NCBI RefSeq assembly: GCF_011059185.1
Contig: NZ_JAALFE010000016.1
Span: forward strand, 1-64,000
Reading direction: 5' to 3'
Length of the DNA stretch: 64,000 bases
DNA from: Paragemmobacter kunshanensis
GTDB taxonomy: Bacteria > Pseudomonadota > Alphaproteobacteria > Rhodobacterales > Rhodobacteraceae
Shown: positions 25,924 through 40,911 of the stretch, one piece after another
How positions within the stretch are numbered: the stretch's first letter is position 1
Layout: each line of letters begins with the position of its first letter
Program-made: the position numbers and the translations under genes
Notes under the pieces: generated by a model
What the model saw: only the letters and a program-made list of their open reading frames with translations
Database searches by the model: none
Told to the model about the DNA's origin: nothing

Positions 25924-26325
25924 CTATTCGGCGGCCTTGCGGAAGGCGGCAAGCACGCCCTCACCCCAGGCCATCTGTTCCTTCAGATCCGCGATCGCCT
26001 CATCCAGTTCGGCGCGCTGCCGCTCCATCTGCGCCAGCCGTTCGGCCGCCACCTCATAGGTGCGGCGCAATTGCGCCTCCTGCTGGCGACCCTCGCGGTC
26101 ATACATGTCGAGAAGCTGGCGGATATCCTCCAGCGAGAAGCCGAACCGCTTGCCGCGCAGGATCAGCTTCAGCCGCGCGCGGTCGCGATAGGTGTAGAAC
26201 CGCGCCGTGCCGCGCCGGATCGGCGACAGAAGTTCCTTGGCCTCATAGAACCGCAGCGTGCGCGGCGTCACCTCGAAGGTGTCGCACATGTCGCGGATCG
26301 TCAGCAGATCTTCCTTGGTGGTCAT
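25924..26325 (-). CDS. MerR-family transcriptional regulator (LiuR-like), proximal copy
   Basis: A 133-aa regulator. The winged HTH is at the N-terminus (LLTIRDMCDTFEVTPRTLRF, then YEAKELLSPIRRG), followed by LILRGKRFGFSLEDIRQLL and a long coiled-coil dimerisation helix (LAQMERQRAELDEAIADLKE). It lacks the Cys residues of metal-sensing MerR proteins, fitting the LiuR/acyl-CoA-sensing branch that controls fatty-acid and branched-chain degradation. The gene is followed at once by the acyl-CoA dehydrogenase gene. A palindromic operator candidate lies 75 bp upstream (26401-26416), so autoregulation is likely. ATG 26325 is preferred over 26352. Confidence 0.85.
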   Translation of the reverse strand: MTTKEDLLTIRDMCDTFEVTPRTLRFYEAKELLSPIRRGTARFYTYRDRARLKLILRGKRFGFSLEDIRQLLDMYDREGRQQEAQLRRTYEVAAERLAQMERQRAELDEAIADLKEQMAWGEGVLAAFRKAAE

Positions 26326-26400
26326 CGGGGCAACTCGTCTGGCAGCTTGCATCAGGTCACAGCATGACTCTGACGCCTTTCCCGAAGCTTACCAGACAAG

Positions 26401-26463: not shown

Positions 26464-26847
26464 TCACGCCTCGGGCAGTTTCGACAACTCCTCGACCGCC
26501 GTTTCGCGCAGGGCGCGCAGGTCGGCGATGGAAAGCTGCAACTCCTCGACCTGGCCATTCAGCGCGGCAAGCTGGCGGTCGGCCATCTGCAGCCAGGCCT
26601 CAAGCTGGCTGCGCGTGCCCTTCTGGCGATAGATCAGCAGCCATTGGCGGATCTCTTCCAGCGAAAAGCCGAAGCGCCGCCCGCGCAGGATCAGTGTCAT
26701 CCGCGCCACCTCGCGCGGGCCATAGAACCGGGCGCGGCCTTCCTTTTCGGGCTGCAAGAGTTCGATATATTCGTAATAGCGCAGCGTTCGCGGCGTCACG
26801 TCGAACTTCGCGCACATCTCCTTGAAGCTGAGGCGGGTTTCGGACAT
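26464..26847 (-). CDS. MerR-family transcriptional regulator (LiuR-like), distal copy
   Basis: A 127-aa regulator closely related to the one at 25924-26325. Its HTH reads LSFKEMCAKFDVTPRTLRYY EYIELLQ, followed by LILRGRRFGFSLEEIRQWLL and a coiled coil (LAALNGQVEELQLSIADLRA). ATG 26847 has a GGAGAG site; upstream in-frame codons look random. The two paralogues lie in tandem, so they could bind the same or related operators with different acyl-CoA ligands, or form heterodimers; both are inference. It is divergent from the thioesterase genes. Confidence 0.83.
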   Translation of the reverse strand: MSETRLSFKEMCAKFDVTPRTLRYYEYIELLQPEKEGRARFYGPREVARMTLILRGRRFGFSLEEIRQWLLIYRQKGTRSQLEAWLQMADRQLAALNGQVEELQLSIADLRALRETAVEELSKLPEA

Positions 26848-26922
26848 CGGCACTCTCCTGACGGGGGCAGCATAGGCGCGCGGCAGGCAGCGCGCAATCG
26901 GCGCATGACGGCGGGGCAGGGG

Positions 26923-26951
26923 TTGCACATCACGGCGGCCGCGCGATTAAT
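26923..26951 (+). promoter_or_regulatory. Probable sigma-70 promoter of the thioesterase pair
   Basis: TTGCAC (26923-26928) and ATTAAT (26946-26951) are spaced by 17 bp and lie 22 bp before the ATG of the first PaaI gene. Confidence 0.45.
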
Positions 26952-26972
26952 GGGTGCGAAAGGGATTTGGCA

Positions 26973-27419
26973 ATGACCGACGTTACGGCACAGGATGTCA
27001 CGGCACTGGCGCGGCGCTTCATCGAGGCGATCCCCCATTCCCGCGCTCTGGGGATGCATCTTGAATCGCTGGGTGCGGGGCGGGTGGTGATGACCATGCC
27101 CTATGACCTGCGCTTTGTCGGCGATCCGGCGACGGGCGTGCTGCATGGGGGCGCGGTCTCGGCCTTGATGGATACGGCCAGCGGGGCGGCGGTGATGTGC
27201 CATCCGGCCGCGCCCGCCTCGACCGCGACGCTGGACCTGCGGATCGACTATTTCCGCGCCGCCACCCCGGGCCAGACGATCACCGCCCGCGCCGAATGCT
27301 ATCACGTGACCCGCTCTGTCGCCTTTGTCCGCGTCACGGCGACGGATGAGGATGAAAGCCGCCCCGTGGCGGCGGCGACGGGGGCCTTCACGCTTGACCG
27401 GCCCAAGGGGGCGAAATGA
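26973..27419 (+). CDS. PaaI-family hotdog-fold thioesterase (first of two)
   Basis: A 148-aa hotdog-fold protein. The family core is GVLHGGAVSALMDTASGAAV (HGG motif with the catalytic Asp on the central helix), then LDLRIDYFRAATPGQTITAR. PaaI proteins hydrolyse aromatic or acyl-CoA thioesters to rescue CoA. ATG 26973 is chosen over a TTG six bases upstream. It overlaps the second thioesterase by 4 bp (ATGA) and is divergent from the distal merR. The position beside beta-oxidation genes fits acyl-CoA turnover. Confidence 0.87.
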   Translation: MTDVTAQDVTALARRFIEAIPHSRALGMHLESLGAGRVVMTMPYDLRFVGDPATGVLHGGAVSALMDTASGAAVMCHPAAPASTATLDLRIDYFRAATPGQTITARAECYHVTRSVAFVRVTATDEDESRPVAAATGAFTLDRPKGAK

Positions 27420-27934
27420 CCCGTGCGAAACCCGAACCCGTCCAGGTGGTCAAGCAGCGCCGCGACGCCGCGCTGCGGGCGCTACTGTCGGGCGTGCCCT
27501 ATATCCAGTATCTCGGCATCCAGTTCGACCGGCGCGGCGATGAGCTGACGGCGATCCTGCCCTTTGACGAAAAGCTGATCGGCAATCCGGCCCTGCCCGC
27601 CCTGCATGGCGGGGTGACGGCGGCCTTTCTGGAAGTGGCGGCGATCATCGAATTGTCATGGTCGATCCTGTGGGAAGAGATGGAGGCCGGCAAGATCGAC
27701 CCCGCCGCCATCGCGGGCATGCCCCTGCGCCTGCCCAAGACCATTGATTTCACGGTGGATTACCTGCGCACGGGCCTGCCCCGCGATGCCTATGCCCGCG
27801 CCCGCGTCAACCGCTCGGGCCGCCGCTATGCCTCTGTCCATGTCGAGGCATGGCAGGACAACCGCGCCCGGCTTTTCGCGCAAGGCACGGGGCATTTCCT
27901 GATGCCCCCCGCCCCCGGCGAACCGGCCGAGTGA
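27416..27934 (+). CDS. PaaI-family hotdog-fold thioesterase (second of two)
   Basis: A 172-aa paralogue of the preceding gene, with the hotdog helix ALHGGVTAAFLEVAAIIELS and the strand FTVDYLRTGLPRDAYARARV. Here the central helix carries a Glu (FLEVAA) where the first copy has Asp (LMDTAS), so the two may differ in substrate or act as a heteromer, as seen in some paired hotdog enzymes. It is translationally coupled to the first copy. Only 16 bp separate its stop from the convergent LysR gene. Confidence 0.85.
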   Translation: MTRAKPEPVQVVKQRRDAALRALLSGVPYIQYLGIQFDRRGDELTAILPFDEKLIGNPALPALHGGVTAAFLEVAAIIELSWSILWEEMEAGKIDPAAIAGMPLRLPKTIDFTVDYLRTGLPRDAYARARVNRSGRRYASVHVEAWQDNRARLFAQGTGHFLMPPAPGEPAE

Positions 27935-27950: not shown

Positions 27951-28853
27951 TCAGGCAATCGGCTCCAGCCCCAGCCGCCCGGCCTGCAACCGCGCATCCG
28001 CCGCGAACTGCCGCAGGAAAAGCTGCGCCACCGGGCTGGGAATGCGCCCGATGCGCCAGTGGATGCTGACCCGGCGCATGCAGGCCGGATCGGCCAGCGC
28101 GCGCGCCGTCAGGCTGGCGGGCAGGTTCACCGTGGCCAGCGCGGGCAGCAGCGTCACCCCCATCCCCGCCTGCACCATCGCCAGCAGCGAGGCGACATTG
28201 CGCACCGAAAACCGCGCCCCCAGCGCCAGCCGCTGAAACCCGGGCGAGGCAAGGCCGCGCGCGGCTTCGTTCAGGATCAGCGCCTCGCCCTCCAGATCGG
28301 CCCAGTCGGGCATCCGGGCCTGCGTCGCAAGGCGGCTGTCGCTGCGGCAGACAAGGCGAAAGGGATCGCGGAAGATCGGATCGCTGGCCAGCCCCGGCAG
28401 ATCGGGCGGCAGCCCGGCAATGCCCAGATCCACCTGCCCCGTCTCCAGCAGATGCCGCACATCCGTGCTGTCGGTATCCACCAGATCAATGTCCAGATCG
28501 GGCCGCGTGGCGATGAAATCCTGCAGAAAGCCCGGCAGCAGCATCGTCGCCACCGACGGGACCGAGGCGATGCGCAACCGCCCGCTGCGCGCCTTCGACT
28601 GCGCCTCGATCCGCTCCATCGCGCGGTCATAGTCGCGCAGCAGGATCACCGACTGGTCGTAAAGGAACCGCCCCATATCCGTCAGGCTGGATTTGCGGTC
28701 GGTCTCGAACAGGGGGCAGCCCAGCCGCTCTTCGATCTGTTTCAGCGTCATCGACAGCGCCGAAGGCGTGCGGAACAGCCGGTCCGAGGCATCCTTGATA
28801 TTGCCGTGATCGGCCACCTCGACAAAGGCGCGCAGGGCTTCGAGTCGCAGCAT
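27951..28853 (-). CDS. LysR-family transcriptional regulator
   Basis: A 300-aa regulator: N-terminal winged HTH (LEALRAFVEVADHGNIKDAS, then LSMTLKQIEERLGCPLFE) and a periplasmic-binding-like effector domain (LRIASVPSVATMLLPGFLQD; DLGIAGLPPD). It is divergent from the LDH2-family gene with about 100 bp between starts, the typical LysR arrangement. An AGTTCA/TGAACT inverted repeat in that gap is a good operator candidate. It therefore probably controls the oxidoreductase and the betaine-type transport and degradation operon behind it. Confidence 0.9.
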   Translation of the reverse strand: MLRLEALRAFVEVADHGNIKDASDRLFRTPSALSMTLKQIEERLGCPLFETDRKSSLTDMGRFLYDQSVILLRDYDRAMERIEAQSKARSGRLRIASVPSVATMLLPGFLQDFIATRPDLDIDLVDTDSTDVRHLLETGQVDLGIAGLPPDLPGLASDPIFRDPFRLVCRSDSRLATQARMPDWADLEGEALILNEAARGLASPGFQRLALGARFSVRNVASLLAMVQAGMGVTLLPALATVNLPASLTARALADPACMRRVSIHWRIGRIPSPVAQLFLRQFAADARLQAGRLGLEPIA

Positions 28854-28869
28854 GGTTCAGTCCCGTTGA

Positions 28870-28898
28870 AGTTCACGCAAGAAGTACTGTGTTGAACT
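28870..28898. promoter_or_regulatory. Candidate LysR operator between divergent genes
   Basis: AGTTCA (28870-28875) and TGAACT (28893-28898) form an inverted repeat with a 17-bp spacer in the 100-bp gap between the LysR gene and the LDH2 gene. Confidence 0.45.
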
Positions 28899-28950
28899 GA
28901 AGCCCGCAATCGTGACCCTGCCCCTGATCGCGAAAAGAGGGGACGGGCCG

Positions 28951-29949
28951 ATGCGGATGACACTGGATGAGGTAGAGGCGCTGGCGCTGGCCCGCCTGCG
29001 CGCGGCGGGGGCATCCGACATGCAGGCGGGGCCGGTGGCGCGGTCGATCCGCGCGGCAGAACGCGATGGCGTGCGGTCGCATGGGCTGATGTATCTGCCG
29101 GTCTATGCCGATCATCTGACCTGCGGCAAGGTGGACGGGCAGGCCCGTCCCGCCCTGTCGCAGCCCCGCGCCGGGGCGGTGGTGGTGGATGCGGCCCATG
29201 GCTTTGCCCATCCGGCCATCGACGCGGGCCTGCCCGCCCTGATCGCCGCCGCCCGCACCTGCGGGATCGCGGCGCTGACGCTGCGCCGGTCCTACAATTG
29301 CGGCATCCTTGGCCATCACGCCGAAGCCATCGCCGGGGCGGGGCTGATCGGGCTTTGCTTCACCCATGCGCCCGCCTCCATCGCGCCCCCGGGGGGGCGG
29401 GTGCCGGTGATCGGCACCAACCCCCTTGCGCTGGCCCTTCCCGATGGCGCGGGCGGCGCGCGTTTCGTGCTGGATCAATCGGCCAGCGTCGTGGCGAAAT
29501 CCGAGGTGATGCTGCGCGCCCGCCGGGGCGAGGCGATCCCCGAGGGCTGGGCGCTGGATGACCAGGGCCGCCCGACCACCGATCCCGAGGCCGCGCTGAA
29601 AGGCTCCATGCTGCCCGCGGGCGGGGCCAAGGGCTTTGGCGCGGGGCTATTGGTCGAGGTGCTGGCCTCCGCCCTGTCGGGCGCGGTGGCCAGCCGCGAC
29701 GCCAGCCCCTTTTCCGGCCCCGCGGGCGGGCCGCCCGGCACCGGGCAATGCTTCATCGCCATCGACCCGGCGGCCTTTGCCCCGGGCTTTGCCGAACGCA
29801 TCGCGGCCCTTGCCGGGGCCATCGAAGGCCAGCCCGGCGCGCGCCTGCCCGGCAGCCGCCGCATCGCCGCACGGGCAAGGATCGAGGCAGAGGGAACCCT
29901 GATCGACGACGATCTGGCCCGGCGCCTGGGCCTCGCGACGGGCAGTTAA
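28951..29949 (+). CDS. LDH2/MDH2-family NAD(P)-dependent oxidoreductase
   Basis: A 332-aa enzyme of the Ldh family (malate/L-lactate/ureidoglycolate dehydrogenase and pyrroline-2-carboxylate reductase superfamily). The conserved AERDGVRSHGLMYLP carries the catalytic His region; AAHGFAHPAI, IGTNPLALALPDG and LPAGGAKGFGAGLLVEVLA mark the nucleotide fold. The start at 28951 follows a GAGGGGAC site. Related enzymes act on 2-hydroxyacids or on cyclic imines such as 1-pyrroline-2-carboxylate. Next to a betaine-type transporter and a KGSADH-like aldehyde dehydrogenase, a cyclic imino-acid substrate is attractive but unproven. It is the first gene downstream of the LysR-controlled promoter. Confidence 0.88.
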   Translation: MRMTLDEVEALALARLRAAGASDMQAGPVARSIRAAERDGVRSHGLMYLPVYADHLTCGKVDGQARPALSQPRAGAVVVDAAHGFAHPAIDAGLPALIAAARTCGIAALTLRRSYNCGILGHHAEAIAGAGLIGLCFTHAPASIAPPGGRVPVIGTNPLALALPDGAGGARFVLDQSASVVAKSEVMLRARRGEAIPEGWALDDQGRPTTDPEAALKGSMLPAGGAKGFGAGLLVEVLASALSGAVASRDASPFSGPAGGPPGTGQCFIAIDPAAFAPGFAERIAALAGAIEGQPGARLPGSRRIAARARIEAEGTLIDDDLARRLGLATGS

Positions 29950-29996
29950 GAAAAACTGAAATCAATCTCATCCGTTATCGTTTGATTGAAGCGACG

Positions 29997-30030
29997 CCCG
30001 GCCCGAGACTGCTGTCCAGAACGGGCCGGG
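29997..30030 (+). repeat. Strong hairpin between the LDH2 gene and the ABC operon
   Basis: CCCGGCCCG (29997-30005) pairs with CGGGCCGGG (30022-30030) around a 16-nt loop. No U-run follows, so it may protect or attenuate the transcript rather than end it. A second inverted repeat, TCAATC/GATTGA, is just upstream (29962-29989). Confidence 0.6.
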
Positions 30031-30064
30031 GCCGAACCCCGCCCCCTGTCAGGAGAGGTTCACG

Positions 30065-31087
30065 ATGACACAGACCCCCCGCCTTCCCACCCCCCGCCTT
30101 GCCGCACTTGCCGCCCTTGCCCTTGCGGGCATGGCGCAGGCCCAGCCCGCCGCCGCGCAGGATTGCGGCAGCGCCGGCACCATCACCGTGGCCGAGATGA
30201 CCTGGCTTTCCGCCGCCACCTTGGCCCATGTCGCGCAAAAGATCATGGAAGCAGGCTATGGCTGCGACGCGCAGCTTGTGCCGGGCGATACCGTGCCCAC
30301 GGCCACCTCGATGCTGACCCGCTCCACCCCCACCGTCGCGCCGGAGCTTTGGGTGTCCACCGTGCAGGCCCAATGGGACGAGATGCAGGCCAAGGGCAAT
30401 GTCTACAAGGCCTCTGACATCTTCGCCGGTGGCGGGCAGGACGGGCTCTGGGTGCCGGATTACGTGCTGGAACAGAACCCGCAGCTGAAATCCATCGAGG
30501 ATCTGGCCGCCAACTGGCAGATCTTCGAAGATAACCAGAACCCCGGCAAGGGCAGGCTTTACAACGGCCCCCCCGGCTGGGCGAGCGAGGTAATCATCAC
30601 CAACTATTACAAGGCTCTGAAGCTTGAGGATTCGTTCGAGCTGTTCTCGCCGGGATCGGGCGAAAACCTCAAGGCCTCCATCGCGCGGGCCGTGGCGCAG
30701 GGCGCGCCTTGGGTCGGCTATTACTGGGGGCCGTCGGATGTGGTGGGCAAGTTCAAGCTGGTCCGCCTCGGCATGCCCGAAAGCGACCGGGAAAAGTTCA
30801 CCTGCCTGACCGATGCCAATTGCGCCGATCCGCAGGTCACCGGCTGGGCCGCGGGCGAGGTGGCGGTCGCCGTCGTGTCGGACCTGAAGGATCAGGCCCC
30901 CGCCGTGGCCGATTTCCTGTCGAAGATGCAGGTCCCGAATGACGAGATCAGCACCGTGCTGGCCTGGGGCGATGACAACGGCGCCACCCCCGAAGAGGTG
31001 GCCGTGCATTTCCTGAAGGAATACGATGCGATCTGGGGTGCCTGGGTGCCCGCCGAAGTGGCCGAGAAGGTGAAATCCTCGCTTTGA
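30065..31087 (+). CDS. Betaine/choline-type ABC transporter substrate-binding protein (OpuAC/ProX family)
   Basis: A 340-aa periplasmic protein with a signal peptide (LAALAALALAGMAQA, cleavage near AAAQD) and an OpuAC domain: ITVAEMTWLSAATLAHVAQK at the start, PELWVSTVQAQWDEM and GAPWVGYYWGPSDV later. Trp and Tyr residues in these segments are of the type that build an aromatic cage for quaternary ammonium groups in this family. Start set by GGAGAGGTTC. It is the first gene of an SBP-permease-ATPase operon; a GC-rich hairpin follows its stop. Confidence 0.9.
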   Translation: MTQTPRLPTPRLAALAALALAGMAQAQPAAAQDCGSAGTITVAEMTWLSAATLAHVAQKIMEAGYGCDAQLVPGDTVPTATSMLTRSTPTVAPELWVSTVQAQWDEMQAKGNVYKASDIFAGGGQDGLWVPDYVLEQNPQLKSIEDLAANWQIFEDNQNPGKGRLYNGPPGWASEVIITNYYKALKLEDSFELFSPGSGENLKASIARAVAQGAPWVGYYWGPSDVVGKFKLVRLGMPESDREKFTCLTDANCADPQVTGWAAGEVAVAVVSDLKDQAPAVADFLSKMQVPNDEISTVLAWGDDNGATPEEVAVHFLKEYDAIWGAWVPAEVAEKVKSSL

Positions 31088-31101
31088 TGATGATCGCCGG
31101 T

Positions 31102-31123
31102 CGCCCCCCGATGCCGGGGGGCG
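31102..31123 (+). repeat. Intercistronic hairpin behind the betaine-type binding-protein gene
   Basis: CGCCCCCCG (31102-31110) pairs with CGGGGGGCG (31115-31123) around ATGC. It lies in the 60-bp gap between SBP and permease genes and probably stabilises the upstream SBP message or lets fewer transcripts continue. Confidence 0.7.
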
Positions 31124-31147
31124 GCCTGCCTGACAAGGACCATTCCC

Positions 31148-32023
31148 ATGACATCCGGCTTCCCCGAACTGTGGGACACGCGCGCCTTCGGCCGCGCGCT
31201 GGACGCAGGTTTCAACAGCATCGTCGCCAATTGGGGCGAAACGCTGGAGCTTCTGTTCATGCCCGTGCTGCGCGGCATCACGGGGCTGGAGCGGGGGCTG
31301 CAAACCCTGCCCTGGTGGGTGGTGGTGGCGCTGTTCTGCGCGGCCACATGGGGGGCTGCCCGCCGCTGGCCGCCGGTCGCCGCAGTGGCGCTGCTGCTGG
31401 TGCTGCTGGGCCTTCTGGGTGTCTGGAACGAGGCGATGGCCACGGTCGCGCTGATGCTGGCCGCGACGGTGCTGTCGGTCCTGATCGGCATGCCGCTGGG
31501 CATCGCCATGTCGCGCTCCGACAGGCTGCGCGGCGGGATGCTGCCGGTCCTCGACATCATGCAGACCATGCCGATCTTCGTCTACCTGATCCCCTTCGTC
31601 ATGCTCTTCGGCCCCGGCAAGATCCCGGCGCTGCTCGCCACCATCGTCTTCGCCATCCCGCCGGTGATCCGGCTGACAGACCTTGGCATCCGCCAGGTCG
31701 ATCCCGAAATCGTCGAAGCCTCGCGCGCCTTCGGCGCCTCGCCGCGCCAGCAACTCTGGTCGGTGCAGGTGCCGCTGGCCATGCCCACCATCATGGCGGG
31801 CATCAACCAGACCACGATGATGGCCCTGTCCATGGTGGTGATCGCCTCGATGATCGGGGCGGGCGGCCTTGGCTATCAGGTGCTGCAGGGCATCCAGCGG
31901 CTGGAAGTGTCGCGCGGCCTGATCGCGGGGCTGGGCATCGTGCTGCTGGCGATCATCTTCGATCGCATCGCGCAAAGCTATGGCCGCCGCGTCCAGGCCA
32001 ACCTGCACCGCGAGGGGAAATGA
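31148..32023 (+). CDS. Betaine-type ABC transporter permease (ProW-like)
   Basis: A 291-aa integral membrane protein with about seven hydrophobic segments. The EAA signature is [20 protein letters not shown], and [15 protein letters not shown]-like sequence precedes it. It corresponds to ProW/OpuAB permeases of the glycine betaine/proline family. Its stop overlaps the ATPase start (ATGATG), so the two subunits are coupled. Together with the SBP and ATPase it makes a complete importer. Confidence 0.9.
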
Positions 32024-33042
32024 TGCGCCCGGTGAAGATCCATGTCGAAGCCGTGTCCAAGGTCTTTGGCCGCGATCCCAGGGGCGCGCTGGCCAAGGTC
32101 CATGCAGGCATGGACAAGACCCGCCTTAAGGACGAGACGGACCATGTCCTTGGCCTGCATGACATCACGCTGGATATCCGGGCGGGCGAAACCTTCGTCA
32201 TCATGGGCCTGTCGGGATCGGGCAAAAGCACCCTGATCCGCCATTTCAACCGCCTGATCGAACCGACGGGGGGGCGCATCCTGTTCGATGGCGAGGATAT
32301 CCTCGGCTTCGATGCCGCGCGGCTGCAGGCCTTCCGCCGCCGCAAGGTGGCGATGGTGTTCCAGCGCTTTGCCCTGCTGCCGCACCGCACGGTGATCGAG
32401 AATGTGGCCTATGGCCTTGCCCTCGATGGCGTGGCGCGGCTTGAGGCGCATCGCCGCGCGGGCGAACAGATCGCGCTGGTGGGGCTGGCCGGGTTCGAGA
32501 ACAGCTATCCCGCCCAGCTTTCGGGCGGCATGCAGCAGCGCGTCGGGCTGGCCCGGGCCTTGGCCACCGATGCCGAGGTGCTGCTGATGGATGAGGCCTT
32601 CTCGGCCCTCGACCCGCTGATCCGGCATGACATGCAGTTGCAGCTGAAGGAACTTCAGGCGCGGCTGGGCAAGACCATCGTCTTCATCACCCATGATCTC
32701 GACGAGGCGCTGCTTCTGGGCGACCATATCGCCATCCTGAAGGATGGCACCCTGCGGCAGGTGGGAACCGGGGCGGAAATCCTGGCCGCCCCCGCCGATG
32801 ACTATGTCGCGCGCTTCGTGCGCGATGTGAACCGCAGCCGCATCCTGCTCTGCGGGGCCTTTGCCGATGCGGGGCTGATCCCGCCGCCCGATGCCCCGGT
32901 GATCGAGGCCGGGGCCACGCTGGAATCCGCCTTCGCCGCCTTTGCGCAGGGCGCGCAGGCCGTGGCGGTGCGGGATGAGGCAGGGCAGATCGCGGGCGGC
33001 CTGACCGCCCGGCAGGTGATGCAGGCGCTGGCACGGCAATGA
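32020..33042 (+). CDS. Betaine-type ABC transporter ATP-binding protein (ProV-like)
   Basis: A 340-aa ATPase. Walker A is [14 protein letters not shown], the Q loop is [14 protein letters not shown], the signature is [15 protein letters not shown], and Walker B is [14 protein letters not shown]; the switch histidine is in [10 protein letters not shown]. An N-terminal extension with [18 protein letters not shown] is typical of the ProV/OpuAA group. The C-terminus ([20 protein letters not shown]) is a short CBS-like regulatory piece rather than two full CBS domains. ATG 32020 and 32023 are both possible. Its stop overlaps the aldehyde dehydrogenase start, tying uptake to catabolism. Confidence 0.9.
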
Positions 33043-34502
33043 GGACGGCTATGGACATCGAGACACGCAACTACATCGCAGGCGCATGGTGCGCGGGCGA
33101 GGGCACGGTTGCCAACATCAACCCCTCGGACCTGACCGATGTGATCGGTCATTTCGCCCAAGGCTCGGTTGCAGATGTGGATCGCGCCGTGGCCGCCGCC
33201 CGCGCGGCGCAGCCGCACTGGGCAGCGGCCGGCATCCAGCGCCGCCATGATGCCCTGATGCAGATCGGCACCGAACTCATGGCCCGCGCGGCCGAGATCG
33301 GCGCGCTTCTCTCGCGTGAGGAAGGCAAGCCGCTGGCCGAAGGCAAGGGCGAGGTCTATCGCGCGGGCCAGTTCTTCACCTGGTTCGCGGCCGAGGCGCT
33401 GCGCTGCCAGGGCGATCAGGCCGAAAGCGTCCGTCCGGGGGTGGAAATCGAGGTGCGGCGCGAAGCGCTGGGCGTCGTGGCCATCGTCACGCCCTGGAAT
33501 TTCCCGGTGGCGACACCCGCCTGGAAGATCGCCCCCGCGCTGGCCTATGGCAATGCGGTGGTGTGGAAACCGGCGAACCTGACCCCGGCCTCTGCGGTGG
33601 CGCTGGCGCAGGTCATCGCGCGGGCGGGGCTGCCTGCGGGCACCTTCAACATGGTGATGGGCGCGGGCCGCGCCCTGGGCGATGCGCTGGTCGGCCATCC
33701 CGACGTGGCCGCCGTCACCTTTACCGGATCGGTCGAGGTGGGCCAGTCCATCGCCGCCCGCGTCCTGACAAACCGCGCGAAACTGCAGATGGAGATGGGG
33801 TCGAAGAACCCCATGCTCATCATGGATGATTGCGACATGGACCTTGCCGTGGCCCATGCCTGCAACGCGGCCTTCGGCGGGACGGGGCAGAAATGCACCG
33901 CCGCCTCGCGCCTGATCGTGCATCGCAAGGTGCTGGAGGAATTCACCACCCGCCTCGTCGCTGCTGCCGAAGCCCTGCGCGTGGGCCACGCGCTGGAAGA
34001 GGGCACCCAGATCGGCCCCGTGGTCAGCGAAGGCCAGCTTTCCGCCAATCTCGACTGGGTCGCGAAAGGCCGGGCCGAGGGCGCCACCCTCCTGACCGGG
34101 GGCCAACGCCTCGACCGCCCCACGCAGGGCCATTTCATGGCCCCCGCCATCCTTGCCGACACCACCAACGCCATGGGCGTCAACCGGGCCGAGATGTTCG
34201 CCCCCATCACCTGCATCATCCCCGCAGACAGCTATGCCGAGGCGCTCTCCCTCGCCAATGACACCCCCTTCGGCCTGACGGCGGGGATCATGACCCGCAG
34301 CCTCGCCCGTGCCGCACATTTCCGTGCCAACATGCGCGCGGGCTGTGTCATGGTGAACCTGCCCACGGCGGGAACGGATTACCACGTCCCCTTCGGCGGG
34401 CGCGGCCTGTCCTCCTTCGGCCCGCGCGAGCAGGGCCGCTACGCGGCCGAGTTCTTTACAACGGTCAAGACCGCCTACATGGCGGCAGGGGTCCCGGAAT
34501 GA
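33039..34502 (+). CDS. Aldehyde dehydrogenase, ketoglutarate-semialdehyde dehydrogenase-like
   Basis: A 487-aa NAD(P)-dependent aldehyde dehydrogenase. Catalytic residues are in place: Asn154 in TPWNFPVATPAWK, Glu252 in LQMEMGSKNP and Cys286 in GGTGQKCTAASR. The C-terminal VNLPTAGTDYHVPFGGRG and REQGRYAAEFFTTVKTAY closely resemble 2-ketoglutarate-semialdehyde dehydrogenases (KGSADH) of hydroxyproline and sugar-acid pathways. That would place the end product as 2-ketoglutarate, but the assignment by resemblance is tentative. ATGA overlaps on both sides couple it to the ATPase and the M19-like gene. Confidence 0.88.
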   Translation: MRTAMDIETRNYIAGAWCAGEGTVANINPSDLTDVIGHFAQGSVADVDRAVAAARAAQPHWAAAGIQRRHDALMQIGTELMARAAEIGALLSREEGKPLAEGKGEVYRAGQFFTWFAAEALRCQGDQAESVRPGVEIEVRREALGVVAIVTPWNFPVATPAWKIAPALAYGNAVVWKPANLTPASAVALAQVIARAGLPAGTFNMVMGAGRALGDALVGHPDVAAVTFTGSVEVGQSIAARVLTNRAKLQMEMGSKNPMLIMDDCDMDLAVAHACNAAFGGTGQKCTAASRLIVHRKVLEEFTTRLVAAAEALRVGHALEEGTQIGPVVSEGQLSANLDWVAKGRAEGATLLTGGQRLDRPTQGHFMAPAILADTTNAMGVNRAEMFAPITCIIPADSYAEALSLANDTPFGLTAGIMTRSLARAAHFRANMRAGCVMVNLPTAGTDYHVPFGGRGLSSFGPREQGRYAAEFFTTVKTAYMAAGVPE

Positions 34503-35515
34503 GTTACCTGATCGACGGGCTGCAATATTCCAACTGGTCGGAAGAGATCTTTCGCCAGTTGCGCGCGGGCGGGGTGGATGCCGTCCATGTGACGCTGGTC
34601 TATCACGAGAATTTCCGCGAGACGGTGGCGAATATCGAACGCTGGAACCGCTGGTTCGAACGCTGGCCCGACCTGATCTTCCAGGGCTTCACTGCCGCCG
34701 ACATCGCCCATGCCCGCGCCACCGGGCGCACCGCCATCTTCTTCGGATCGCAGAACCCCTCCTGCATCGAGGATGACATCGGCCTTGTCGAAGTCCTCCA
34801 TCGCCTTGGCCTGCGCTTCATGCAACTGACCTACAACAACCAGTCCCTCCTCGCGACCGGCTGCTATGAGGCCGAAGATACCGGCCTTACCCGCATGGGC
34901 CGCGAAGTGGTGGCCGAGATGAACCGCATCGGCATGGTCGTGGACATGAGCCATTCGGGCGAACGCTCCACCCTTGCGGCGCTGGACCATTCCACCCGCC
35001 CCATCGCCATCACCCATGCCAACCCCGCCCTTTGGCACCCCGCGCGGCGCAACAAATCCGATGCCGTGATCGGCGCGCTGGCGCAGACGGGGGGGATGCT
35101 GGGCTTCTCGCTTTACCCCCATCACCTGAAGGATGGCAGCGCCTGCTCCCTCGCGGAATTCTGCAGCATGATCGCCCGCACGGCGGAACGCTTCGGCACC
35201 CATTTCCTGGGCATCGGCACCGACCTTTGCCAGAACCAGCCCGACAGCGTGGTGGAATGGATGCGCACCGGGCGCTGGACCAAGGCCGTTGATTACGGCG
35301 AAGGCAGCAAGGATGCGCCGGGCTTTCCCGCCATGCCCGCATGGTTCCGCGACAATCGCGATTTCGGCACGATCGCCGATGGCCTGCGCGCCACCGGATT
35401 CTCGGGAACCGAGGTCGCCGCGATCATGGGCGGCAACTGGGCGCGCTTCTTCGCCGCCTCCTTCGGGGCAGCCGGGCAGGGGGCCGAGGCGCAGGGCAAG
35501 AGGGCGGCGGAATGA
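34499..35515 (+). CDS. M19 (membrane dipeptidase)-family protein with missing metal ligands
   Basis: A 338-aa TIM-barrel protein of the renal dipeptidase family: GREVVAEMNRIGMVVDMSHSG and IAITHANPALW are family hallmarks, keeping two metal-ligand histidines (about 152 and 173). The first ligand pair, normally His-x-Asp in DGHxD, reads DGLQYSNW (Leu8, Tyr10), and the bridging Glu is replaced at FGSQNP (Gln85). Three of five ligands are therefore gone, so ordinary dizinc dipeptidase activity is unlikely. Homologues next to methylamine/betaine catabolic genes are known in Pseudomonas, without assigned function. It is coupled by ATGA overlaps on both sides. Confidence 0.85.
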   Translation: MSYLIDGLQYSNWSEEIFRQLRAGGVDAVHVTLVYHENFRETVANIERWNRWFERWPDLIFQGFTAADIAHARATGRTAIFFGSQNPSCIEDDIGLVEVLHRLGLRFMQLTYNNQSLLATGCYEAEDTGLTRMGREVVAEMNRIGMVVDMSHSGERSTLAALDHSTRPIAITHANPALWHPARRNKSDAVIGALAQTGGMLGFSLYPHHLKDGSACSLAEFCSMIARTAERFGTHFLGIGTDLCQNQPDSVVEWMRTGRWTKAVDYGEGSKDAPGFPAMPAWFRDNRDFGTIADGLRATGFSGTEVAAIMGGNWARFFAASFGAAGQGAEAQGKRAAE

Positions 35516-37176
35516 CCATCGCGGAACGGGCAGACCCGGCACAGGACATCGCCCCGCGCGATCCCGATAGGGTGATGCGCCTGTCGCGCATGGGATCGGC
35601 CCATCCGATGCGCCTGTCCTTCCTGCGCGTGCTGCTGCGGCGGATGCAGGCCGAAGGCTGGCGCTTTGACCGCCCCCTGTGGGAGATGGACGCGCGCGGC
35701 ACCGGCCGCGCCGTCTATCGCGCGCGCGGCCCGGAACGCAGCTATTGCCTTGTGGCCTTCGCCCATGACCTGCCCGACGAGATGCGCTCTGACCGCGTCA
35801 TCGCCACCGCCTGGGATGCGACCTTCGCCCTTGTCGATGGCGAACCCGACGCCGCCGATCTGGATCGCCTCGCCGCCAATGTCCCCCTGCAGGAAGCCGG
35901 GCGCATCAGCGCGAAGGAACTTTCCCTCAGCCGCGCCAACCGCTCTGTCCGGCTGTTCTCCCATGTGGTGGACCGGCTGGCGCAGGGCCAGCAACCCGAC
36001 CGGGCCGAGATCGACGCCGTGGGCTATCTGATGCGCACCACCGCCGTCTATGGCTCGGGCAAGTTCGGCGCGGCGGATCGCGATTGCATCGCGGCCCGCC
36101 CCGAACTCAAGGCCCCCTTCCAGGCCGAGATGCTCTCGGTCTGGCTGACCCGCGCCTTCACCGTGGATATCGCCGAACATCTGGCGCAGGTGCGGGGCGG
36201 GGCGCGCGCGGTCCGGATGGACCGCGCCCTGCGCCGCCGCCTGGGGGTGGGCAATTCCACCGGGCTGGGGATGGCGCCCTTCCTCGTGCGCCATCCCCGC
36301 CTCCTGAACAACTGGATGACGGTCCGCGAAACCGCGCTGGCCCGCGTCCGCGCGCTCCCCTCGGCCGATGGGGCCGCCCGCGCCGCCTTCCGTCAGGCGC
36401 TGGCAGGGGCGCAGGAAAACGCCACGCTCTGGCACAGCGACCATCCCGCGCAGATCCGCAAGCTGGACATGCTGCGCCATGATCTCGACATCCTCGCCAC
36501 CCATGTGGACCATGTCTGGACCCCCGCCGCGCCGCGCCCCTGGGATGCGCTCTGGCGCTGGGGCGAAGGGGTGCTGTCGGAAGAGGGGCAGGAATGCCTG
36601 CTTTCCCTGCTTCTCGAACCGCATGGCGCGGTGGTGGATGATCTGGCCGATGGCCTCGACGCGGATGAGGAGACGGGCTTTCCCCTTGACGGCAGCCTGC
36701 CCCTTGCCACCCTGCGCGCCATCCTCGCCCGCGATTACGGCTGGGTCCGCGCCTTCGATTTCGCCGATCCGGCCCGCTCTGCCCGCTTCTGGTATGTGTC
36801 CGAGGAAAAGCTGGAACCCCGCCTTGGCAACCGCCACGAAGAGGCAGGCCAGGAAAGGGAGCAACCCCTTGGCATCGCCCGCGCCATCGCCGCGCTGGCC
36901 GCTGCCCTTGCCGCCTTTCCCGAAGGGGCCACATTGGCGGCCTTCCTGCTGCGCCACCCCGAACACCGCCACACGGCGCGCCGCCTGCTGATGCTGCGCG
37001 GCCTGCCCTATGCCGAGATCCGCGACAACCTGCTGGATGCCGCCATGCTGCCCATCGACATCCTGCGCTGCAAGCTGGCCTTCTTCGGGGCCACCCGCTT
37101 TGATCCGCGCTCGGACCGCTGGGTGCGGATCAGCCTGTTCCAGGGCCAGCCCTACCCAGACGAGTTGGGCGCATGA
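35512..37176 (+). CDS. Uncharacterised 554-aa protein of the betaine-type operon
   Basis: I do not recognise a family. It is a soluble-looking, Arg- and Ala-rich protein without signal peptide or membrane segment. Features seen: RLSRMGSAHPMRLSFLRVLL near the start, a glycine-rich segment GVGNSTGLGMAPFLVRHP at about 245-262, and RFWYVSEEKLEPRLGNRHEE near 420. The conspicuous GNSTGLGM and YGSGKFG segments might bind a nucleotide or CoA-like cofactor, but that is a guess. It starts inside the M19-like stop and its own stop overlaps the DUF3726 start, so it is made together with both and probably works in the same pathway. Confidence 0.8.
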   Translation: MTIAERADPAQDIAPRDPDRVMRLSRMGSAHPMRLSFLRVLLRRMQAEGWRFDRPLWEMDARGTGRAVYRARGPERSYCLVAFAHDLPDEMRSDRVIATAWDATFALVDGEPDAADLDRLAANVPLQEAGRISAKELSLSRANRSVRLFSHVVDRLAQGQQPDRAEIDAVGYLMRTTAVYGSGKFGAADRDCIAARPELKAPFQAEMLSVWLTRAFTVDIAEHLAQVRGGARAVRMDRALRRRLGVGNSTGLGMAPFLVRHPRLLNNWMTVRETALARVRALPSADGAARAAFRQALAGAQENATLWHSDHPAQIRKLDMLRHDLDILATHVDHVWTPAAPRPWDALWRWGEGVLSEEGQECLLSLLLEPHGAVVDDLADGLDADEETGFPLDGSLPLATLRAILARDYGWVRAFDFADPARSARFWYVSEEKLEPRLGNRHEEAGQEREQPLGIARAIAALAAALAAFPEGATLAAFLLRHPEHRHTARRLLMLRGLPYAEIRDNLLDAAMLPIDILRCKLAFFGATRFDPRSDRWVRISLFQGQPYPDELGA

Positions 37177-37775
37177 CCACCGCCCCCATCGACATGGCGA
37201 TGTCCGAACTGCGCGCGCTGGTGACCAAGGCCGCGCGCGGCGCGGGGCTGGGCTGGGGCCATGCCGAAGAGGCAGGCTGGGCCGCCGAATGGCTGGCCCG
37301 CCGGGGCCTGCCTGCCGCCGATTGGGCGACGCTCTGGCTGGCCCATTTCGTCGCGGGGGGGCAGGGGCCCGTCACCATCGGGGCGGCGCTTGCCGACAGG
37401 TTTGCTTCCGCCGATGGTCCATTGCCAAGGGAACTGCTGCCCGACGATCTGCCCGCGCCGGGCTATCTGCTGCCCTTCCTGAATCTGATCGCCCGCGAAC
37501 GGGGGCCTGTCGCCCTTTGTGCGGACGGGATCGCCGTTGCAACGGTCGATCCCGATGGCGGGGTGGCCTTCGGGCCGGGCTGGGCGCAGGCCAGCGCGGG
37601 CTGGTCCATCGCCCCCGCCACAGAGATACCCACCACGGTCGCCACCACGACCTCCCGCGCCCTCGTCTCGGCTTCAGTGATCGACTGCCTCGACGGGCTG
37701 GCCCTGCGCACCACCGTCCCGCCCTCCGATGCCTCGCGCCGCAATGCGGGCGCGGCCAGTTCCGATAACGACTGA
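37173..37775 (+). CDS. DUF3726 family protein
   Basis: A 200-aa protein recognised as DUF3726 from its N-terminal part: MSELRALVTKAARGAGLGWG, then HAEEAGWAAEWLARRGLPAADW. The arrangement resembles the N-terminus of LDH2-family enzymes in spirit (helical, Gly-rich), but no catalytic residues can be named. The C-terminus is low-complexity and ends RRNAGAASSDND. It closes the coupled run SBP-permease-ATPase-ALDH-M19-554aa-DUF3726, and this pairing with the 554-aa protein is likely functional. Confidence 0.8.
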   Translation: MTTAPIDMAMSELRALVTKAARGAGLGWGHAEEAGWAAEWLARRGLPAADWATLWLAHFVAGGQGPVTIGAALADRFASADGPLPRELLPDDLPAPGYLLPFLNLIARERGPVALCADGIAVATVDPDGGVAFGPGWAQASAGWSIAPATEIPTTVATTTSRALVSASVIDCLDGLALRTTVPPSDASRRNAGAASSDND

Positions 37776-37819: not shown

Positions 37820-39127
37820 ATGTCCACGATCACCCATCGCCGCCTGCTCGGGATCGCCGCGCCCATCGTCCTGTCCAATGCGACAGTGCCGCTTCTGGGG
37901 GCGGTGGATACCGGCGTGGTGGGCCAGATGGGGCAGGCCGCCCCCATCGGGGCCGTGGGCGTGGGATCGGTGATCCTGATCTCGCTCTACTGGATCTTCG
38001 GCTTCCTGCGCATGGGCACCTCGGGCCTTGCCGCCCAGGCCCATGGCGCGGCCGACCTGCCCGAACGCGGGGCGATCCTGCTGCGCGCCCTGCTGATCGG
38101 CGCGGCGGCGGGGCTGGCCTTCATCCTGCTGCAGGGCCCGCTCTTTCACGTGGCCTTCCTGATCGCCCCCGCCGGGGACGAGGTGGAGGCCCTTTCGCGC
38201 GACTATCTGGCGATCCGCATCTGGGGCGCCCCCGCCACCATCGCCGCCTATGCGCTGACGGGCTGGCTCATCGCGGTGGAACGCACGCGCGGCGTGCTGC
38301 TGCTGCAGCTCTGGATCAACGGGGTGAATGTGGCGCTGGACCTGTGGTTCGTCCTTGGCCTTGGCTGGGGCGTCTCCGGCGTCGCCGCCGCCACCCTGAT
38401 CGCGGAATGGACGGGGCTTGCCCTCGGGCTCTGGCTCTGCCGCGACGGGGTGCTGCCGGTCTGGCGCGCGGCCTGGGCGCGGCTGCCCGACCGCGCCGCG
38501 CTGCGCGTCATGCTGGCGGTCAACCGCGATATCATGATCCGCTCGGTCCTGCTGCAACTCAGCTTCACCGCCTTTGTCTTCTTCGGCGCAAGGCTGGGCG
38601 ATGTGACGCTGGCCGCCAATCAGGTGCTGCTGCAGTTCCTCTCCATCACCGCCTATGCGCTGGATGGCTTCGCCTTCGCCGCCGAAACCCTTGTGGGGCA
38701 GGCGGTGGGGGCAAAGGCGCGCGCCGACCTGCGCCGCGCCGCGCGGCTGTCGATGCAATGGGGCGTGGCCGGGGCGGCGCTGCTGGCTTTGGCCTTCGCG
38801 CTGGCAGGCCCCGCCCTGATCGACCTGATGACCACCGCCCCCGATGTCCGGGCCGAGGCGCGCGCCTATCTGCCCTGGCTTGTCGCGGCCCCCCTGATCG
38901 GCGTCTTTTCCTGGATCTATGACGGCATCTTCATCGGCGCCACCCTGACCGCCGAGATGCGGCGCACCATGATCCAGTCGGTCGCGATCTATGCGCTGGC
39001 GCTGGCCCTGCTGATGCCTGCCCTCGGCAATCACGGGCTCTGGGCCGCGCTGATGGTGCTGAACGCCGCGCGCGGCCTGACCATGGCCCGCGCCGCCCCC
39101 CGGGCCGAGGCGCGCATCGCCGCCTGA
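37820..39127 (+). CDS. MATE-family efflux transporter (DinF-like)
   Basis: A 435-aa membrane protein with twelve hydrophobic helices. The two MATE repeats are visible: IAAPIVLSNATVPLLGAVDT with GQMGQAAPIGAVGVGSVI, and later LRVMLAVNRDIMIRSVLLQL with LAANQVLLQFLSITAYALDG and FAAETLVGQAVGAKA. It exports drugs or metabolites using proton or sodium gradients. It follows the DUF3726 gene by 44 bp in the same direction and might be read through from that operon, but nothing ties it to the pathway. It converges on the TIGR02186 gene with a 9-bp gap. Confidence 0.9.
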   Translation: MSTITHRRLLGIAAPIVLSNATVPLLGAVDTGVVGQMGQAAPIGAVGVGSVILISLYWIFGFLRMGTSGLAAQAHGAADLPERGAILLRALLIGAAAGLAFILLQGPLFHVAFLIAPAGDEVEALSRDYLAIRIWGAPATIAAYALTGWLIAVERTRGVLLLQLWINGVNVALDLWFVLGLGWGVSGVAAATLIAEWTGLALGLWLCRDGVLPVWRAAWARLPDRAALRVMLAVNRDIMIRSVLLQLSFTAFVFFGARLGDVTLAANQVLLQFLSITAYALDGFAFAAETLVGQAVGAKARADLRRAARLSMQWGVAGAALLALAFALAGPALIDLMTTAPDVRAEARAYLPWLVAAPLIGVFSWIYDGIFIGATLTAEMRRTMIQSVAIYALALALLMPALGNHGLWAALMVLNAARGLTMARAAPRAEARIAA

Positions 39128-39136
39128 CGCAGCCCC

Positions 39137-39919
39137 CTAGCGCCGCAATATCCCGAACCCGACCGAGGCCGCCCACCCCGCCCCCGCCGCCATCACCAGC
39201 GACAACAGGCCGTATAGCCAGGGCTGGCTGCGGGCCAGGCTGAACAGGAACCGCTCCAGCCCCTCCTTGCGCACGCCCACCACGCGATCCTGCGCATCCA
39301 CCACCCGCCCGCCCCGCGTCAGGAAGATGCGCACCCGGTATTCGCCCTCGGTCAGGTTCGAGGGCAGCACGACATCGGCCCGGAACAGCGTCTGTTCGGT
39401 GAATTCCACCGCCCCCTGCAACACGCGGTACCGGCTTTCCCCGATGCGGATGCGCTGCATCGCCTCGATGAATTCGGTGGGGCTTCCGCTTTCATTCGCG
39501 GCACCGATGGCGCGGATCACCCGGGGCAGGGTGATGCGGTGGCGCAGATCCTCGGTCTCGGACAGGATCTGCCGCAGGGGGCCGGTCGTCACCACGGCAT
39601 AGAAACTGGGGGCCGCGTCGATATGCACCGCTTCGGTATTGATCCAGATGCCCGCGCGGCGGTCCTTCTTGCGGATGGTGACCGGCGTCGCCGGCCCCTC
39701 GACGGTGATGATCACCTCCATCGCCCCCTCGGGGAGCGGCGCGTTGCGCTTGACCGCGCCATAGACCAGGATCTCCGACCCGTCGAAATCGGCGGTGATC
39801 GAGACGCGGTTCTGGCTCAGCCCCGCCACGATGCTTTCCGCCGCCGGGGCGGGGCTGCCCGCAGCCCCCATCGCCAGCGCGACGATCCCCAGCCCCTGCC
39901 GCAGGCCCGCCCCGCTCAT
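39137..39919 (-). CDS. TIGR02186 family membrane-anchored periplasmic protein
   Basis: A 260-aa protein with a signal peptide (LGIVALAMGAAGSPAPAAES), a beta-rich periplasmic domain (VSITADFDGSEILVYGAVKR; VRKEGLERFLFSLAR) and one C-terminal transmembrane helix (WLYGLLSLVMAAGAGWAASV). It matches the TIGR02186 pattern of alphaproteobacteria, typically encoded next to a TauE/SafE permease as here. The start overlaps the permease stop (ATGA). The pair may export a sulfonate or sulfite-like anion, with this protein as periplasmic partner; that role is inferred from gene order. Confidence 0.85.
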   Translation of the reverse strand: MSGAGLRQGLGIVALAMGAAGSPAPAAESIVAGLSQNRVSITADFDGSEILVYGAVKRNAPLPEGAMEVIITVEGPATPVTIRKKDRRAGIWINTEAVHIDAAPSFYAVVTTGPLRQILSETEDLRHRITLPRVIRAIGAANESGSPTEFIEAMQRIRIGESRYRVLQGAVEFTEQTLFRADVVLPSNLTEGEYRVRIFLTRGGRVVDAQDRVVGVRKEGLERFLFSLARSQPWLYGLLSLVMAAGAGWAASVGFGILRR

Positions 39920-40833
39920 GGCAGCACCCCGGGCATCACGGAATAAAGCTCGGACGGGCGGATCAGCAGGTCCAGCGCGATCTTCACCGAAACCGCCAGC
40001 ACCAGAAGCGCCAGCAGGATGCGCAGCTGCTCTGCCTTCAGCCGGACCCCGATGCTCGTGCCGATCTGCGCGCCCACCACCCCGCCCAGGATCAGCAGCA
40101 GCGCCAGCAGGATATCGACCGTCTGGTTGGTCACCGCATGCATCAGCGTGGTAAAGGCCGTGACGAAGATGATCTGGAACAGCGATGTTCCCACCACCAC
40201 CTTGGTGGGCATGCCCAGAAGATAGATCATCGCAGGCACCATGACGAACCCGCCACCCACCCCCATGATCGCCGCCAGAAACCCCACCAGCGCCCCCACC
40301 CCCAAGGGCGGCAGCACGCTGATGTAAAGGCCCGAGGCGCGGAATTTCATCTTGAAGGGCAGGCCATGCACCCAGGTATGCACATGCGCCCGCCGCACCG
40401 GCCCGCCGCGCTGCGACCGGAACCAGGCCCGCAGGCTTTCCTGCAGCATCATCGCCCCGATCAGGCCCAGGAACAGCACATAGGACAGCTGCACGAACAG
40501 ATCGACCTGCCCCAGCCGCGTCATCCACTGGAACACCCAGATCCCCGCCGCCGATCCGACAAGCCCCCCCGCCAGCAGCACAAGGCCCATGCGGAAATCC
40601 ACCGCCTTCCGCCTGAGCTGCGCCAGCACGCCGGAAATGGACGAGGCCACCACCTGATTGGCCCCGGTGGCCACCGCCACGGCGGGCGGCACCCCGATGA
40701 AGAACAGCAAGGGCGTGATCAGGAACCCGCCGCCCACGCCGAACATGCCCGACAGAAAGCCCACGATGCCGCCCAACCCCAGAAGGAGGAAGGCATTGAC
40801 CGATACCTCGGCAATCGGAAGGTAAAGCTGCAT
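39916..40833 (-). CDS. TauE/SafE (TSUP) family sulfite/organosulfur exporter-like permease
   Basis: A 305-aa membrane protein with about eight helices and the two TSUP repeats: GIVGFLSGMFGVGGGFLITP early and LVGFLAAIMGVGGGFVMVPA later, each with the GVGGG motif. A central cytoplasmic loop (RSQRGGPVRRAHVHTWVHGL) is specific to the subgroup paired with TIGR02186. Members move sulfite, sulfoacetate or similar anions. ATG 40833 is preferred to a TTG six bases upstream. Coupled to the TIGR02186 gene. Confidence 0.9.
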   Translation of the reverse strand: MQLYLPIAEVSVNAFLLLGLGGIVGFLSGMFGVGGGFLITPLLFFIGVPPAVAVATGANQVVASSISGVLAQLRRKAVDFRMGLVLLAGGLVGSAAGIWVFQWMTRLGQVDLFVQLSYVLFLGLIGAMMLQESLRAWFRSQRGGPVRRAHVHTWVHGLPFKMKFRASGLYISVLPPLGVGALVGFLAAIMGVGGGFVMVPAMIYLLGMPTKVVVGTSLFQIIFVTAFTTLMHAVTNQTVDILLALLLILGGVVGAQIGTSIGVRLKAEQLRILLALLVLAVSVKIALDLLIRPSELYSVMPGVLP

Positions 40834-40911
40834 GGGCAAGGCCGGGCAAGAAGCGGCAGTCAGACCAAAGGGTTGCGCCCCTTTGGCCGCGATGTCAAAC
40901 CACTCGGCCCG

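Follow-up and report, generated by a model that had tools for sequence, protein, structure and literature searches.

A conserved nine-gene cluster of Paragemmobacter kunshanensis, probably for the uptake and breakdown of homarine or a close cyclic betaine

In a stretch of 64,000 nucleotides from the alphaproteobacterium Paragemmobacter kunshanensis (contig NZ_JAALFE010000016.1, positions 1 to 64,000; the window), a LysR-type regulator gene diverges from eight plus-strand genes that encode an importer together with enzymes and proteins of unknown function, and the question is which compound they take up and degrade. An earlier note on this DNA had suggested a proline betaine- or hydroxyproline-like compound. 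Comparison with related loci shows that the cluster is a genuine conserved catabolic operon, and we propose that, under the control of LysR, it imports and degrades homarine (N-methylpicolinate) or a cyclic N-methyl betaine carboxylate that closely resembles it, a reading to which we give a probability of about 70%. Marine phytoplankton contain homarine as an abundant osmolyte. Published papers are cited here from excerpts of their text.

A conserved operon and a smaller triad

The nine genes, their coordinates and the 4-bp overlaps from the permease on, all described in the earlier note, were confirmed by a listing of open reading frames and by family scans. The LysR-type regulator (27951..28853, minus strand; PF00126 and PF03466) is divergent from the operon and lies just outside the region quoted in the earlier note, which starts at 28870. 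On the plus strand, the first gene encodes an LDH2-family NAD(P)-dependent oxidoreductase (about 28951..29949; PF02615, E 2.3e-92), a probable ketimine (N-methylamino acid) reductase whose start codon may be at 28951, 28957 or a GTG at 28912. It is followed by a betaine-type substrate-binding protein (SBP) of the OpuAC type (30065..31087; PF04069), a ProW/ChoW-type permease (31148..32023; PF00528, and TIGR03416 with 273.5 bits, under the cut-off of 363), a ProV-type ATPase (32020..33042; TIGR01186 with 340.3 bits, over the cut-off of 326.6), an aldehyde dehydrogenase (ALDH; 33039..34502; PF00171, E 6.3e-153) that would probably act on a ring-opened semialdehyde, an M19-like protein (34499..35515; PF01244, E 1.4e-70), a protein of 554 amino acids without a Pfam or NCBIfam match (C554; 35512..37176), and finally DUF3726 (37173..37775; PF12525, E 3.7e-12), apparently a dedicated partner of C554. 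At all five junctions from the permease through DUF3726 the overlap is exactly 4 bp.

We compared 140 C554 loci, of which 133 were distinct after removal of seven, all duplicates. A gene was counted as near when it lay on the same strand within 5 kb (M19), 6 kb (ALDH) or 8 kb (ABC permease), or on either strand within 8 kb (LDH2, LysR, BCCT) or 9 kb (RidA). The transporter counts cover ATP-binding cassette (ABC) importers of the ProXWV type and BCCT carriers, and not further classes, for instance the branched-chain-type transporter of L204. Some of the sequences behind the family profiles come from these same loci. Part of the compared genomes was hand-picked from the C554 match list, and another set of loci consisted of the best 80 of 571. 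Many contigs end close to the cluster, and the presences given are lower bounds. DUF3726 follows C554 in 128 distinct loci and is fused to it in four (L068, L127, L130 and L153), thus 132 of 133, and a fifth natural fusion is annotated in Mesorhizobium (L204). M19 is near C554 in 122 of the 133 loci, which bears out the co-occurrence of the M19-like gene, C554 and DUF3726 whose examination the earlier note had proposed; ALDH is near in 82 and RidA in 30. All nine genes recur in unchanged order in G003, a genome of the same genus, and in G044, with identities of 55-93%, lowest for DUF3726, and because of this recurrence and the nearly universal C554-DUF3726 pairing the association is not due to chance. 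The locus L065 has LysR, LDH2, ALDH, M19, C554 and DUF3726, and such an ABC importer was not found within the 19 kb fetched. Within the family, C554 matches were found in 177 and DUF3726 in 156 of 394 genomes; in the host genus, DUF3726 is present in only 2 of 19 genomes, indicating that the cluster is accessory there.

The locus counts point to two forms of the cluster. The 82 loci with ALDH all have M19, and LysR is near in 74, LDH2 in 29, RidA in 28 and a ProXWV- or BCCT-type transporter in 52 (43 BCCT, 9 ABC). The corresponding numbers for the 51 loci without ALDH are 40 for M19, 2 for LysR, 16 for LDH2, 2 for RidA and 3 for a transporter. The first form is the catabolic operon and the second a bare M19-C554-DUF3726 triad. 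Such triads, for example L109-L119, mostly lack importer, ALDH and LysR and apparently have a separate function; in the class of lower identity, a truA-like gene lies nearby in nine loci (L110-L114 and L116-L119), and an ileS-like gene is near a bare triad in six, both named by eye. Relatives of 30-43% identity were also found on plasmids of Natrinema, Sinorhizobium, Variovorax, Pseudomonas and Caballeronia. On the Pseudomonas sp. MPC6 plasmid (L207) the cluster genes are arranged in divergent halves, with a Rieske-type oxygenase and RidA close by, and in a Sinorhizobium meliloti strain two overlapping short genes are annotated after the C554 homologue (L208:13674-14403).

Homarine as the probable substrate

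The importers found at the cluster loci belong to the ProXWV-type ABC or the BCCT class. The only solved relative of the window's SBP found at E up to 1e-5 was 7yle, the dimethylsulfoniopropionate (DMSP)-binding protein DmpX. Of the eight DmpX pocket residues named in PMC10030565 (Trp35, Thr64, Trp84, Glu113, Trp152, Ala153, Tyr200 and Trp202), seven are identical in the SBP and Glu113 is replaced by Asp. Judged from these residues, the pocket appears to be of the onium-carboxylate type.

The nearest solved relative of LDH2 is delta1-piperideine-2-carboxylate reductase (1wtj/2cwf/2cwh, E 3.1e-53). Some of the LDH2 proteins encoded close to the cluster (L068, L070, L073, L074 and L093) form a subset with ICG in place of the SHG motif and SHTCT in place of SYNCG, perhaps a different catalytic type. 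For ALDH, no solved relative was found at E up to 1e-100, weaker matches being left unlisted. Its top NCBIfam model was NF042993 (alpha-ketoglutaric semialdehyde dehydrogenase), with 482.3 bits far under the equivalog cut-off of 770, and the idea of the earlier note that this enzyme leads to 2-ketoglutarate is thus not supported. M19 dipeptidases have a binuclear zinc site made up of His-x-Asp, Glu, His and His. In the M19-like protein, the HxD motif reads L8-Q9-Y10 and the Glu is Q85, all four residues being invariant across 24 aligned rows, and H152 and H173 are retained. Since three of the five zinc ligands are gone, it is unlikely to be a dipeptidase. Its best solved relative, 2i5g (E 9e-54), likewise lacks HxD and Glu at those positions and is presumably the Pseudomonas protein PA5396 of the glycine betaine locus. 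Regarding a role for this Pseudomonas relative, the excerpt of PMC12093977 gave its gene neighborhood, and that of PMC3691474 contained nothing on its role.

The link to N-methylated glutamate comes from three loci of different organisms in which the cluster is no more than about 6 kb away from a SoxBDAG-type complex and an AraC-type regulator. In Ruegeria TM1040 (L203/L210) the cluster comes immediately after the complex and an AraC/DJ-1 regulator, in Roseibacterium (L148) complex and AraC-type gene are contiguous after LDH2, and in an uncultured alphaproteobacterium (L178) they lie about 2 to 8 kb downstream. The SoxB proteins of these loci share 78-83% identity with the one that the host encodes on its contig C27. 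A glutamate-synthase-type gene was present within 20 kb on the same contig for at least 7 of 18 SoxB copies with 74% or more identity to that of the host, against at least 0 of 48 at 58-73% identity among the copies listed, both numbers being lower bounds matched by hand from two lists. Five of the seven linked copies show the split MgsC profile match, and G019 and G077 do not. In L223, the complex is followed by an XRE-type regulator, a glutamine amidotransferase, an MgsC-type and a glutamine-synthetase-type gene (the Mgs/GmaS set). Because of this linkage and these neighbors, the host-type complex is most likely N-methylglutamate dehydrogenase (Mgd). The host contig C27 carries Mgd and MgsC, and the earlier expectation that demethylation is encoded elsewhere fits with this copy and with the three linked loci. 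The host Mgd adjoins an XRE-cupin regulator gene. XRE regulators have been reported after soxBDAG in Colwellia, and the neighbor first prompted us to consider a sarcosine oxidase, an idea later dropped. In L220 and L223, a similar XRE-like gene, recognized by eye, lies between Mgd and Mgs-type genes.

In R. pomeroyi, according to the excerpt of PMC13390433, the AraC-type gene tmaR adjoins mgd (mgdABCD), and the same paper cites a 2026 report (Nat Microbiol) of Mgd taking part in homarine catabolism. It is mainly because of the Mgd linkage and this statement that we name homarine as the substrate. R. pomeroyi assimilates homarine quickly (PMC12817926, in part). Between the AraC protein of TM1040 and its counterpart next to Mgd in L221, the identity is 52%. 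The loci L094, L095 and L102 have the gene order DUF3726-LDH2-BCCT, and we take comC, the name of SPO3187, to be an LDH2-type name. In excerpts of PMC10130141 and PMC4334477, SPO3187 and the betaine/DMSP transporter SPO3186 have adjacent tag numbers in R. pomeroyi, in agreement with that gene order and as expected, from tag numbers only, if SPO3186 onwards is the cluster. In the literature searched, the tags SPO3191-3193 and two others were not mentioned, and text on the homarine pathway was found only as the citation in PMC13390433.

Homarine has six carbons besides its N-methyl group and N-methylglutamate has five. In the pathway that we propose, SBP, permease and ATPase would import homarine, C554 together with DUF3726 (perhaps LDH2-derived) would attack the N-methylpyridinium ring, and ALDH would oxidize the ring-opened semialdehyde. 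The M19-like protein might then act as a hydrolase. We guess that it cleaves off an N-formyl group, a step that would explain why N-methylglutamate has one carbon less than homarine. LDH2 would reduce an N-methyl ketimine to N-methylglutamate. Ring cleavage with one carbon lost as formate, ALDH oxidation, deformylation and ketimine reduction would thus end at N-methylglutamate, which Mgd, encoded elsewhere in the genome, would demethylate to glutamate, passing the one-carbon unit to folate. The presence of RidA near C554 in 30 of the 133 loci fits enamine or imine intermediates. An alternative route would be a reductive attack on the ring leading to a six-carbon N-methylamino acid. What the analysis shows is the content, order and conservation of the genes, the class of the transporter, the pocket residues, the kinship of LDH2, the linkage to Mgd in other genomes and the Mgd copy of the host; the substrate, the sequence of steps and each single reaction are inferred.

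Several observations weigh against homarine. The pocket could equally accommodate DMSP or glycine betaine. It is also not constant among the SBPs of the cluster, since Ala153 is Gly in the more distant ones of L069, L071, L078 and L081. No oxygenase or reductase for the ring attack is recognizable in the operon. LDH2 is near C554 in only 29 of the 82 loci with ALDH, indicating that it is dispensable or often encoded elsewhere. Mgd-class linkage was found in three loci only, among L063-L202 (140 loci) and the plasmid loci L203-L209, and the neighbor in L131 is a Sox complex of another class, with a SoxB 50% identical to that of the host Mgd. The AraC proteins of L148 and L178 share only 29-31% identity with their TM1040 counterpart, these comparisons being among cluster loci and not with TmaR itself. 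We looked for co-distribution of Mgd and the cluster within the genus and saw none, Mgd being present in 16 of 19 genomes versus 2 of 19 for DUF3726; since Mgd occurs regardless of the cluster, the host Mgd is merely permissive. Finally, Heal et al. 2021 reported that R. pomeroyi grew more poorly on homarine than on trigonelline, and the homarine standard of that study was later reported to be contaminated (PMC10134881).

C554, DUF3726 and the borders of the operon

C554 is well conserved, with 47-80% identity across 59 relatives and many invariant residues. A 60-row profile found no convincing relative in the PDB, the best match being a coiled coil (2efr, E 0.28) that we take as chance. With no Pfam, NCBIfam or PDB relative in the searches made, C554 apparently represents a new family, yet with a homologue in haloarchaea: on a Natrinema plasmid (L206:5899-15282) it is followed by a gene with weak similarity to LDH2, and genes for a BCCT transporter, an ALDH and a protein of the DHDPS family lie nearby.

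DUF3726 itself matched PF12525 alone in the Pfam scan and was not hit by the PF02615 profile. Its profile gave 8rx5 as best PDB match (E 0.031, taken as chance), and the literature searched yielded no mention of it. Several weak signals connect it with LDH2. The gene after C554 in Natrinema matches PF02615 with E 4.8e-9 and 36.2 bits, under the cut-off of 38.8, and the one in Variovorax at 0.0054, under the curated cut-off. Both proteins weakly match the DUF3726 profile, in a search of four sequences that makes the E-values flattering. When DUF3726's N-terminus was aligned with LDH2, hhalign returned an E-value of 5e-4 yet a probability of 31%, and with the Natrinema protein the probabilities were 4.7% for DUF3726 and 8.7% for LDH2. 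A resemblance of the C-terminal endings was also noted by eye. DUF3726 is perhaps a degenerate LDH2-family subunit that serves C554. Tentatively, the two could form a new type of enzyme that dearomatizes or opens N-methylpyridinium rings, with C554 as the large subunit and DUF3726 as a small one that has degenerated from the ketimine-reductase fold of LDH2. The chemistry might involve hydride transfer of the NAD(P)H type to a substrate that is itself similar to the nicotinamide ring, and the versions in bare triads and haloarchaea may act on other cyclic onium compounds. A reading as a defense system was dropped, as a PADLOC search gave no match for C554, DUF3726 or M19.

The region between LysR and LDH2 contains a candidate LysR operator, TTCA-N7-TGAA (28856..28870), which by its sequence may bind the regulator. 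It was seen in five of seven aligned LysR/LDH2 intergenic regions, including that of the window, and L064 and L065 have its left half alone. Promoter and terminator scans gave no signal above chance level. A MATE transporter gene (37820-39127) begins 44 bp after the operon and does not belong to the 60 largest families of recurrent neighbors. Further downstream lie genes for a TauE/SafE exporter (39916-40839) and a nucleoside phosphorylase (40912-41760). Two adjacent MerR regulators (25924-26352 and 26464-26928) are encoded on the minus strand of the window, and next to them lie two tandem 4HBT thioesterases (26970-27934).

Rival readings and known systems

The operon might instead degrade another cyclic or branched N-methyl betaine, such as proline betaine, hydroxyproline betaine, pipecolate betaine or trigonelline, with Mgd-type or other flavoproteins as demethylases. 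Betaine-type importers of two unrelated kinds at the cluster loci and the cyclic imino acid reduced by LDH2's nearest solved relative would agree with this, as would FAD-dependent oxidoreductases in the stretches fetched for L080/L145 (from one genome), L096, L099, L195 and L198, which share 34-38% identity with a presumably DMGDH-like protein of 806 aa in L204. Nevertheless, neither a betaine demethylase nor a racemase, a TgnAB-type monooxygenase or a DHDPS-type deaminase appears in the Pfam assignments of the operon, and the Mgd link points to N-methylglutamate. We consider this reading unlikely. Of the earlier proposal, an operon for import and catabolism of a betaine-type compound is supported, given the conserved co-occurrence and the ProXWV or BCCT importers. 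The choice of proline betaine or hydroxyproline is not supported, since the nine genes include neither a racemase nor a demethylase nor a deaminase of the DHDPS type.

We regard it as considerably less probable still that the importer carries DMSP or glycine betaine and that the enzymes form an unknown branch of their catabolism. The SBP does share seven of eight pocket residues with its sole solved relative, the DMSP-specific DmpX, the cluster lies beside DMSP demethylation genes on Phaeobacter inhibens pPGA1_262 (L205:11906-17346), and in an excerpt of PMC12093977 both Vibrio natriegens and P. aeruginosa have a gene for a predicted dipeptidase ahead of dgcAB. Yet the DMSP neighborhood is a single locus, the operon's Pfam assignments include no DMSP or betaine demethylase or lyase, and PMC10030565 describes R. 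pomeroyi dmpXWV as not colocalized with known DMSP catabolic genes. The least probable reading, and a very improbable one, sees M19, C554 and DUF3726 as a general module, for metabolite repair or cofactor handling, recruited beside transporters without any ring-opening pathway. It draws on the 51 of 133 loci without ALDH within 6 kb, with their 40 M19, 3 transporters and 2 LysR, and on the truA-like gene near nine loci. Against it, all 82 ALDH-containing loci have M19 and most of them LysR and a transporter too, a composition that resembles a dedicated pathway.

If the homarine reading is true, bacteria that carry this gene set, in the Rhodobacteraceae and outside them, are likely users of homarine, and the reading gives a testable role to two families of unknown function, C554 and DUF3726, the latter as an LDH2 relic. 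According to Heal et al. 2021, homarine had no characterized degradation pathway at that time. To call the operon undescribed, as the earlier note tentatively did, is probably mistaken: the year 2026 saw the publication of a homarine pathway (cited in the excerpt of PMC13390433), this kind of operon was probably described there, and we believe, by inference, that its gene set is the one found here. What remains of interest is the chemistry of C554-DUF3726, and the bare triad, mostly without importer, ALDH and regulator, poses a second question.

Among known systems, the hydroxyproline pathway combines a DHDPS-type deaminase with KGSADH; it was rejected, as no DHDPS domain was found among the nine genes and ALDH reached 482.3 of 770 bits. 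The trigonelline Tgn pathway resembles the proposed one in its substrate class, an N-methylpyridinium carboxylate, and includes aldehyde dehydrogenase and hydrolase steps. It differs in its TgnA/TgnB monooxygenase, which a search limited to the operon did not find there, and TgnAB was judged unlikely to act on homarine in the excerpt of Heal et al. 2021. The glycine betaine locus of Pseudomonas and Vibrio (pepD-hypothetical-dgcAB, gbcAB, soxBDAG; PMC12093977, in part) has, as here, a predicted dipeptidase beside a hypothetical gene in a betaine cluster. Gbc/dgc-type catabolism was rejected as well, GbcAB, DgcAB and Etf being present there and not here, with GbcAB and DgcAB absent from the cluster's Pfam assignments. 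With respect to the LDH2/DpkA family, the operon's LDH2 belongs to PF02615, and DUF3726 may be distantly derived from the same fold, although it is shorter, matches PF12525 only and, across the loci compared, goes together with C554. DmpXWV (7yle; PMC10030565, in part) has an SBP homologous to ours over nearly its full length, with the 7/8 pocket identity and the Glu113 to Asp change described above, and differs in that the operon's importer sits among catabolic genes, whereas that of R. pomeroyi does not. In the homarine pathway of 2026 (Nat Microbiol 2026;11:1531, doi 10.1038/s41564-026-02313-7), Mgd is reported (via the excerpt of PMC13390433), and here the genomic neighborhood links Mgd to the cluster in three loci. 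The importer of the window cluster is of the ProXWV-type ABC class, whereas many relatives have BCCT. The published operon is reportedly named homABCDER, a name that would fit five catabolic genes and a regulator.

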